Below, piece after piece: positions 38,504-41,230 of a stretch of 64,000 nt of DNA. The notes under the pieces were generated by a model. It worked only from the letters and a program-made list of their open reading frames with translations. It made no database searches and was not told the DNA's origin. Location: the NCBI GenBank assembly GCA_949358305.1, contig OX442314.1:63187369-63251368 (forward strand), written 5' to 3'. A program made the position numbers and the translations under genes. Source of the DNA: Strigamia acuminata. Lineage: Eukaryota > Arthropoda > Chilopoda > Geophilomorpha > Linotaeniidae. Position 1 is the first letter of the stretch. The number at the start of each line of letters is the position of its first letter.

Positions 38504-41230
38504 CAATTGATCCAACCAAAAGCGCCTCAAAGTGGCGATTCAAATGGACAAATGAATTCGGACAGTCAAGCCACCGGACCAGCTTGGACTCCTACAGCCA
38601 CGCCTATTGGCGTGAGTTCAATGAATAAATCTATAATTTGTTGGTATAATGAATATAATTTAATTACATTTAGCAAACTGATTTGGATCCGGCATTGGCA
38701 TCATCTGCTGGTCAACCCACACCATCTGTTCACGAGCAACCAATGAGACTGCATGTTTCAAATATTCCATTCCGGTTTCGTGAGTCTGATTTAAGACTAT
38801 TTTTTGGGGTAAGATCACCAGTAAATTGATTTTATGACAATTCGTGGGACTATAAAATACCTTATATGTCCATTTTCCCAGGACATTTTCAAAATCTGAA
38901 CAATTATCTGCATTTTTGTGGTTGTGGTTCAAAACCACAAAAATTTTGAATTTATTGCCCCAAAAATGACCGATTTTTGTTTTTCTCGTCCGAGAAACCA
39001 CTTTTGACGCCATTTTGGGGACATTAAAATAGAAAATGTTTTTGCCTACACTGAAAAAATGTCTAAATATTTATTTGCGTTTTTTTTTCTCCCAGCAATT
39101 TGGTCCCATTCTGGACGTTGAAATAATTTACAACGAGCGCGGCTCAAAGGTAGGCTTAATGTCTAAATAATTGTCACGTATTTGAACAGCAACTTTTTTG
39201 CAACTTTAATCTCTTGGTTAGGTTCACTTGTCAGTGGCGAGAGGCGTACCAAATAATTAAAGGACTCTCGTGCAAAAATTGGGCCTCTTGATAACATTTT
39301 TCAAAAACTTTGACAAATTTTGATAAATTTTCTAAATACAGGTGATTGATGTGCATTACTTAGCTGATATGCAAAAAAATAAAAAAAAAATTTGAGTTTA
39401 GGGTTAAAATAAAAAGTTCTATGTGGCTTATTGGAAAGAAAAGCAATGTTGTTTTGTTTACGTGTTGTGTGCATGGATTTTAATACTTGTTTCCTTGTTT
39501 TCTTTATCGCACGTGCATGCAGGGATTCGGTTTCATAACTTTCACAAATAGTTCAGACGCTGGCAGAGCACGACACGCATTGAATGGCACTGTGGTGGAG
39601 GGACGTAGAGTAGAGGTGCATACTCGTATAAGCTTATTCATTTCATATACCGTACTGCCTCGAAGAAACGCCGGGGCATTTAGTATGTTTTCGACTCGCC
39701 CCGCCCGGCGTTTATTCGAAGCCCGGCGCTTGTTCGGCGCATAACTAAAAAATCGCCGATTTTTCACTGAAAATGATGATTTTTTCCATAACATCACCGA
39801 TTTTTTGGGGGATCCGGCGTTTATTCCGGGCCGGCGACAATTCCTTATATCGCCGCTGAGTGCCCAACGTTTAATCGAGTCCCTGCGTTTAATCACGCCC
39901 GGCGTTACATCGAGGCAGTACAGTATTTGCATTTATATTTAGATGTTGTAACAGATGTTAAAGCACGCCTAACTAATAACTATAAATGTGTTCTTTTTTG
40001 GTTGTAAAAATCAAAAAGTGTTATAAACCACTTCAAAAACAGCTGTTTGTGTTTTCGTGGTTTTGGTGCATGTTTATGGCTGTTTTTGGTGTCCAATCTG
40101 TTTAAGAAAACACCAAAAACGATAGAAACAGAACTTTTAAACACACACCTAGTGCTGTTTTGTGTTGATTTAAGCTTAGTAGCGAGTGTTGGCACGGATT
40201 CTGAAAATACTATTTTTTATAAAATACTAATTTTAATATTTGCAGCTACAAAAATACAGTTTATGTGTTTTTGATGTAATTTCGAACTCTTGCCGTTATT
40301 GTAATTCATTACTTATTTATTTCCCCACTAAAGGTAAATAATGCAACTGTAAAAGTGCACACTCAGAATGCATCCGCAGTCTCTAAGGGTAAGTTAAAGC
40401 TAATTGAACGCATAAAGAGAATAAAGGGTTAATTTTAGTCCTGTCCTTTTTACCTCTTTGTAAATTGGGCTTTCTAATGTCAGTTGTAGGTAATTAATTA
40501 GAAAATTTTAAACTTATTTGACAAGTGAGTGTGGGGATTAATAGTTTTTGTGGTGACATTTTATTGTGACAGTGACAGCATCCTACATAGGGTTTCTGTT
40601 TTCCCGCCTTTCTGGAATTCCCGGTTCCCGAGAAATCGGTACTCCCGGGACTAAAAATAATCAGGCGAAAGGCGACGAAAAATGGCAAAAAATGTCTATT
40701 TTCCGTCAAAAATGGCCTTCCTTAGCCATTTGCAACCATTTTTTATGGTAAAAATGGCCATTTTCCGCAAAAAATGGCCGTTTTTCGTCACGAATGGCCG
40801 TATTTCCTAAAAAAATGGCCATTTTTAGCCATTTTCCGCAAAAAATGGCCGTTTTTCGTCACGAATGGCCGTATTTCCTCAAAAATGGCCATTTTTAGCC
40901 ATTTTCCATGGTAAAACTTGCCATTTTCATCATTGAAACGTAACAAAATGTAATGTTTCGATGACGCAAATGACGTTTCAGCAACAAATTTATGACGGAA
41001 CCGGTTTTTCTCAAATTTCTCGGTTCACGGTACCGTAGTTTCTCACCGGGTTTCCCGGTACCGAAACCCTAATCCTATATATTCACTACTTTTGGCCATT
41101 AACCGGACTGGTTCCCATTTTTGTTTCTTTCTTTTAAATATTTATTTTGTCTCTGCTAGGTGGAGTTAGGTTTCAAAGAGGCCGGGCACGTGGAGCAGAC
41201 AAGAGATTCATCTGGCATTCCATCCGATAA
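38504..41230 (+). CDS. Rbfox: Rbfox/Fox-1 family splicing regulator (partial at 5' end)
   Basis: Exons 38504-38611, 38674-38808, 39096-39149, 39523-39615, 40334-40388 and 41160-41230; all phases agree and each intron is GT-AG. Known role: a nuclear protein binding (U)GCAUG to control alternative exons. The RRM is split as in the family: RLHVSNIPFRFRESDL, then a 54-nt exon (QFGPILDVEIIYNERGSK), then a 93-nt exon (GFGFITFTNSSDAGRARHAL, TVVEGRRVE), then VNNATVKVHT. The 54- and 93-nt sizes equal the vertebrate ones. RNP1 is GFGFITF. The N-terminus (Gln/Ser/Gly/Pro-rich, ~80 residues before the RRM) lacks its start codon, so upstream exons are missing. The last exon gives an Arg/Gly-rich tail (GGVRFQRGRARG) and stops at 41230, much earlier than the long Tyr/Ala-rich C-terminus usual in the family. 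It may be a short isoform. Confidence 0.9.
39470..39519 (+). promoter_or_regulatory. Two TGCATG (Fox-binding) sites before the 93-nt Rbfox exon
   Basis: TGCATG at 39470-39475 and 39514-39519. The second overlaps the 3' splice site region, 9 nt before exon start 39523. In vertebrates Fox proteins bind such sites upstream of their own 93-nt exon to make it skip, giving an RRM-defective product. Further TGCATG words are at 40067-40072 (next intron) and 41456-41461 (after the stop). Confidence 0.75.
39647..39926. mobile_element. MITE family D, copy 1 (280 bp), in an Rbfox intron
   Basis: Termini ATACCGTACTGCCTCG / ATACTGTACTGCCTCG (15 of 16). Subterminal words CGCCGGGGCATTTA, CGTTTAATC and CCCGGCGTT resemble those of copy 2 and of the satellite spacer. 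It starts 32 bp after a splice donor. Confidence 0.85.
40588..41071. mobile_element. MITE family B, copy 1 (484 bp), in an Rbfox intron
   Basis: Ends TAGGGTTTC...GAAACCCTA. Subterminal GGAATTCCCGGTTCCCGAG and CCCGGTACCG words flank a central ATGGCC-rich minisatellite (40740-40915). The same element occurs inverted at 60320-60807. Confidence 0.87.

Follow-up and report, generated by a model that had tools for sequence, protein, structure and literature searches.

The stretch of DNA analyzed here (64,000 nucleotides, referred to below as the window) comes from chromosome 1 of the centipede Strigamia acuminata and carries an Rbfox gene on the + strand. The gene is a duplicated and shortened centipede Rbfox, and we consider it fairly probable that it has inherited the Fox-binding element that controls the RRM cassette exon of Rbfox genes. 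The principle of such self-control is already known; what is particular to the present case is the shortened duplicate.

The assignment to the Rbfox family is based on several features. Exons A to C are matched by database Rbfox proteins, and the best PDB matches of exons B and C are FOX-1/RBFOX RRM structures (2cq3, E 3e-21). The gene has the Fox-type RRM of the family as well as its characteristic succession of a 54-nt and a 93-nt RRM exon in phase 0/0 (39096-39149 and 39523-39615). The exons and the Fox motifs around them are listed below in window coordinates, with motif positions counted relative to the start of exon C.

38504..38611, + strand: Rbfox exon N2, 108 nt, pre-RRM linker, flanked by AG and GTGAGT; aligned to the chromosome-2 copy
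38674..38808, + strand: Rbfox exon A, 135 nt, first part of the RRM, QTDLDP... to RLHVSNIPFRF...
38750-38755, + strand: TGCATG within exon A, in both copies
39096..39149, + strand: Rbfox exon B, 54 nt, QFGPILDVEIIYNERGSK
39470..39475, + strand: TGCATG at -53; opposite it the chromosome-2 copy has TGCACG
39509..39513, + strand: GCACG at -14, an alternative Fox motif, inside a 6-nt stretch absent from the chromosome-2 copy
39514..39519, + strand: TGCATG at -9, in the 3' splice site region (TGCATGCAG/G); same position in the chromosome-2 copy
39523..39615, + strand: Rbfox exon C, candidate cassette, 93 nt in phase 0/0; encodes the RNP1-containing (GFGF) second half of the RRM
39616..39621, + strand: weak 5' splice site GAG/GTGCAT of exon C
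40334..40388, + strand: Rbfox exon D, 55 nt, VNNATVKVHTQNASAVSK
41160..41230, + strand: remnant of Rbfox exon E, GGVRFQRGRARGADKRFIWHSIR then TAA at 41228-41230, placed by DNA alignment
41456..41461, + strand: TGCATG 3' of exon E; the chromosome-2 copy has one at the aligned place (about +205 of its exon E)

Exon C encodes GFGFITFTNSSDAGRARHALNGTVVEGRRVE and is flanked by AG and GT. Both of its ends fall on codon boundaries, so that skipping would fuse NERGSK to VNNATVKV in frame. It is homologous to the 31-residue RRM exon of vertebrates and shares with it two traits of the cassette: it is an in-frame 93-nt exon whose absence deletes half of the RRM, and Fox motifs adjoin or overlie its splice sites. 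The first-pass annotation had pointed to two TGCATG motifs starting 53 and 9 nt upstream of the 93-nt RRM exon, the second of them in the 3' splice site region. Both are indeed there, at 39470-39475 and 39514-39519 with the exon starting at 39523, and the one in the 3' splice site region (39514-39519) starts at -9. The GCACG at 39509 directly abuts this second motif. The 5' splice site of exon C, GAG/GUGCAU, scores 4.3 bits on a human matrix, whereas exons A, B and D reach 7.9, 8.6 and 10.5; a similarly low score is also found elsewhere (4.2 for exon E of the chromosome-2 copy). Over the same splice site stretch the window reads TGCATA, whereas the chromosome-2 copy has the full TGCATG (intron +2 to +7).

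Proteins lacking exactly this exon are present in other animals. Three protein searches (best 120 of each) yielded 315 distinct proteins, including 89 with the exact exon-less junction, 212 with the exon and 14 with neither; since two of the three queries were themselves exon-less and only the best 120 were taken from each search, 89 of 315 should not be read as a frequency. In the first, unbiased search, exactly exon C is absent in 5 of the 120 best-listed proteins. The exon-less examples come from databases and include many predicted proteins; their grouping by species was made by reading the protein names. Twelve of the 89 are arthropod or arthropod-like and come from nine named species: Centruroides vittatus, Limulus polyphemus, Tachypleus tridentatus, Parasteatoda tepidariorum, Oedothorax gibbosus, Anabrus simplex, Frieseomelitta varia, Ostrinia nubilalis and Pseudolycoriella hygida. 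Another 15 are molluscan (eleven species, including Potamilus, Ostrea, Magallana, Pomacea and Littorina), and 62 are vertebrate or vertebrate-like. None of the 315 is a myriapod exon-less protein; one S. maritima protein ends soon after exon B.

The genome (237,517,015 bases in 157 contigs) was searched with a fly-type Rbfox RRM. The matches comprised exon C of both copies (80% for chromosome 2, 64% for the window), exon A of the chromosome-2 copy, and 14 further matches that are 27-46% identical and resemble other RRM proteins. The chromosome-2 gene is a full-length Rbfox and carries an equivalent 93-nt exon. It extends from an N-terminal exon (ending LTPTALHHHHHPL) through the RRM up to an exon encoding YNRFAPY, and it has the Ala/Tyr-rich C-terminal domain typical of the family. 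Its terminal exons were located with proteins of spider (two), horseshoe crab and S. maritima; among these four Rbfox queries, the S. maritima protein fits the N-terminal part best. The vertebrate C-terminal model PF12414 matched nothing anywhere in the genome, including both Rbfox copies, and a tblastn search of the genome with a vertebrate C-terminus produced weak matches only. Exon C of the chromosome-2 gene is preceded by GCACG at -46 and by TGCATG at -33 and -9, and one more TGCATG lies over its 5' splice site (intron +2 to +7).

Two further observations concern the chromosome-2 gene. Its exon E (about 37565800-37566150, - strand) has TGCATG at -19, inside the exon and at +205, and may represent a second exon under Fox control. 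A candidate 51-nt cassette exon, GTGAGTGTATC...ACTTCT, flanked by AG and GTAAGT, is located at about 37595146-37595196 (- strand). The window counterpart of this candidate (37928-37972) has kept the 3' splice site and not the 5' one.

The window copy is a diverged duplicate of the chromosome-2 Rbfox. In tblastn searches of the window with the four Rbfox queries, neither the N-terminal exon nor the Ala/Tyr-rich C-terminal exons past exon D were found, and the sole match past exon D is Ala-rich, chance-like and on the opposite strand. As the Ala/Tyr-rich C-terminal domain has no match, we consider the window gene a truncated member of the Rbfox family. Window exon E has lost the frame after RGRARGA, together with the 5' splice site of the corresponding chromosome-2 exon.

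The two copies have three Fox-type sites each upstream of exon C, and the cluster likely predates the duplication. The site at -9 is common to both copies as TGCATG; those at -53, at -33 and at the 5' splice site are not, and the chromosome-2 site at -33 has no counterpart in the window. Between the copies, the final 60 nt upstream of exon C are identical at 45 of 54 aligned bases (83%), with 12 gap columns. Other intron regions display comparable or lower likeness: 371 of 452 bases after exon E, 49 of 60 before exon A, and 27, 35 and 31 of 60 before exons B, D and E, respectively (the latter in ungapped alignments; blastn aligns the surroundings of exon B at 85%). The intron end matches the better-aligned neutral parts and does not exceed them. 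We therefore rejected copy likeness as proof of selection, neutral sites being equally similar. For the same reason the motif conservation that the first-pass annotation proposed as a sign of constraint does not serve as one between the two centipede copies.

This neutral-level likeness, together with the failure to find N- and C-terminal coding exons in the window and the loss of both frame and 5' splice site in exon E, would also fit a different history, in which the window gene is a partial duplicate undergoing decay, with Fox sites that survive as idle remnants of the ancestral element. The substitution pattern points in the same direction. Over 88 codons, pN between the copies is 0.13 compared to a pS of 0.31, with 24 of 30 comparable fourfold sites identical. 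Most of the residue changes are on the window side, the window copy being fast-evolving: the copies differ at 14 RRM positions, and at 13 of them the residue of the window copy is shared by no more than 7 of 204 homologues (the comparison covered 204 of the 315 proteins, about 15 of which appear shifted at some columns). At the RRM position 130, the residues of both copies are common among the 204 homologues. However, exons A to D are open, their AG/GT dinucleotides are intact, and the length has changed in frame only. Moreover, the RNA-contact residues of FOX-1 are retained in the window copy except for 193 and 194, and the copy still has three Fox-type sites. On balance, we regard decay as a possibility to be taken seriously, although less likely than not.

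A more novel reading is that the window gene is still alive as an RRM-only Rbfox duplicate. Lacking the activating C-terminus, its product would compete for UGCAUG sites, and its output would be shut off by Fox-driven skipping of the inherited RRM exon. Such a protein would be a dedicated Fox antagonist in a cross-regulatory loop with the chromosome-2 gene. We find this doubtful. The open frame was considered as proof of a living gene and rejected, because it often survives random change: in simulations, the 88-codon frame was still open after 25-45 changes in 50-29% of runs. By the same token, the window gene may be dead.

Returning to the inherited control element, we infer Fox binding, repression and skipping of exon C in Strigamia acuminata by analogy with the known systems. 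A Fox protein, made mainly by the full-length gene on chromosome 2, would occupy UGCAUG/GCACG at -53, -14 and -9. At -9 it would cover the 3' splice site of exon C, and at -53 it would sit near the likely branch-point region. With the 3' splice site hindered and the 5' splice site weak, exon C would be skipped in frame, and the resulting product would be devoid of 31 RRM residues, including RNP1. In the case of the chromosome-2 gene, the outcome would resemble that in vertebrates, namely an isoform that has a defective RRM but retains both tails. The window copy appears to be without the usual C-terminus, and skipping would therefore act there as an off-switch, or loss of function, and not generate a dominant negative. 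The dominant-negative form envisaged in the first-pass annotation is thus unlikely to come from the window copy, whose usual C-terminal exons are unmatched in the window and whose exon E is out of frame.

The sites might conversely promote the use of exon C, for example by aiding its weak 5' splice site, much as MYH9 exon A2 was reported to be included more readily with RbFox at a weak 5' splice site, although the motif there was GUGACU (PMC13158602); yet we give this very little credence, since the window TGCATG sites lie upstream, where Fox binding is reported to accompany skipping (PMC5577181), and the equivalent exon is repressed by vertebrate Rbfox3 (PMC3126832).

A simple coincidence of TGCATG words beside an ordinary constitutive exon was assessed by shuffling. 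In 20,000 dinucleotide shuffles of the 373-nt intron preceding exon C, at least two TGCATG fell within the last 60 nt in 12 cases and at least one in 604; for the 373 nt before exon C of the chromosome-2 copy, the respective numbers were 1 and 192 of 20,000. Using the rate sampled from the genome (37 TGCATG on both strands in 80 kb, as eight 10-kb samples), the Poisson P for the window pair is 1e-4. The broader motif GCAYG occurs three times in this 60-nt interval of each copy (P 5e-5 each) and is absent from the corresponding interval before the four other window exons A, B, D and E. The P values are partly post hoc because the motif was chosen by eye in an earlier reading of the sequence; nonetheless, both the exon and the motif were fixed in advance by the vertebrate case. 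Two TGCATG within the last 60 intron nucleotides were found at none of the four other window exons (A, B, D and E) and at none of the ten other chromosome-2 exons, whose starts outside A to E are approximate, having been placed from protein alignments; exon E of chromosome 2 has one. At a larger scale, the Rbfox part of the window (37535-41726) contains 5 sense TGCATG compared to 1.0 expected (P 0.003), and in the chromosome-2 gene there are 28 sense occurrences in 44.8 kb compared to 10.4 expected (P 4e-6) and 17 antisense ones (P 0.04). In the window as a whole, TGCATG is rarer than in shuffled sequence (15 compared to 35, both strands). Coincidence, then, may draw on the frequency of single motifs near the exon and on the site having been picked by eye, but the rarity of motif pairs in the shuffles of both copies, at the very exon that vertebrate Fox proteins control (PMC3126832), leaves it highly improbable.

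The proposed control has known precedents. Damianov and Black in 2010 reportedly described Rbfox2 exon 6 and its Rbfox1 and Rbfox3 equivalents as auto- and cross-regulated, with dominant-negative Fox-delta-RRM as the product; in their work, Fox sites are also said to overlap splice sites and to flank the fly exon. PMC3126832 states that Rbfox3 represses Rbfox2 exon 6, which results in an in-frame RRM deletion and a dominant-negative protein. The centipede genes resemble the vertebrate exon 6 system in having the same-family in-frame 31-residue RRM exon with Fox motifs near the splice sites, and in that the second half of the RRM would be lost in frame. In contrast to that system, the centipede duplicate is without the usual C-terminal exons, its skipped product would not have the domains for a dominant negative, and repression of its exon is a prediction. 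A second parallel is the Drosophila Fox homologue, likewise an arthropod Rbfox, for which Dredge and Jensen 2011 state an equivalent alternative exon (PMC3126832). The mixture of motif types also has a counterpart: in C. elegans, GCACG acts as a Fox site alongside GCAUG, and intron VI of xol-1, a FOX-1 target, combines several GCAUG and GCACG in one intron, with both motif types working (PMC7787662).

The statement on the fly exon by Dredge and Jensen 2011 means that the deep conservation suggested by the first-pass annotation is not new (PMC3126832). As for its broader proposal of Rbfox autoregulation, the Rbfox gene, the homologous exon, the cluster of Fox sites in both copies and the exon-less proteins of arthropods, molluscs and vertebrates all speak for it, whereas a dominant negative from the window copy, the constraint and the novelty find no support. 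Among the 8 literature matches listed of 1,020, none features Rbfox or A2BP1. The present data extend the control element of the Rbfox RRM exon, including the Fox motifs at its splice sites, to a myriapod. Taken together with the exon-less proteins of chelicerates, insects, molluscs and vertebrates, they support a feedback exon that was already present in the common ancestor of protostomes and vertebrates, if not earlier. In the shortened duplicate, nature provides a test of whether the element can persist after the loss of the C-terminal domain that underlies the dominant-negative effect.

Several minor observations were made in the window and in the rest of the genome. In the mitochondrial contig (15,068 bases), ARAGORN found nothing in the first 10 kb. 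The regions at about 8303-8513 and 11285-11495 of this contig give an identical 70-residue antisense translation, which probably reflects a mitochondrial duplication of at least 210 bases. Window segments 30931-31291 and 32207-32537 are related to each other and have matches of about 69-81% at several spots near the chromosome-2 Rbfox; they are probably a dispersed repeat. Finally, extended arrays of repeats resembling CACCAATTTTTCACCAAATTT and ATTTCTATCAAAATTTCCTATTTTTCG, partly inverted, occupy window positions 35400-36250.
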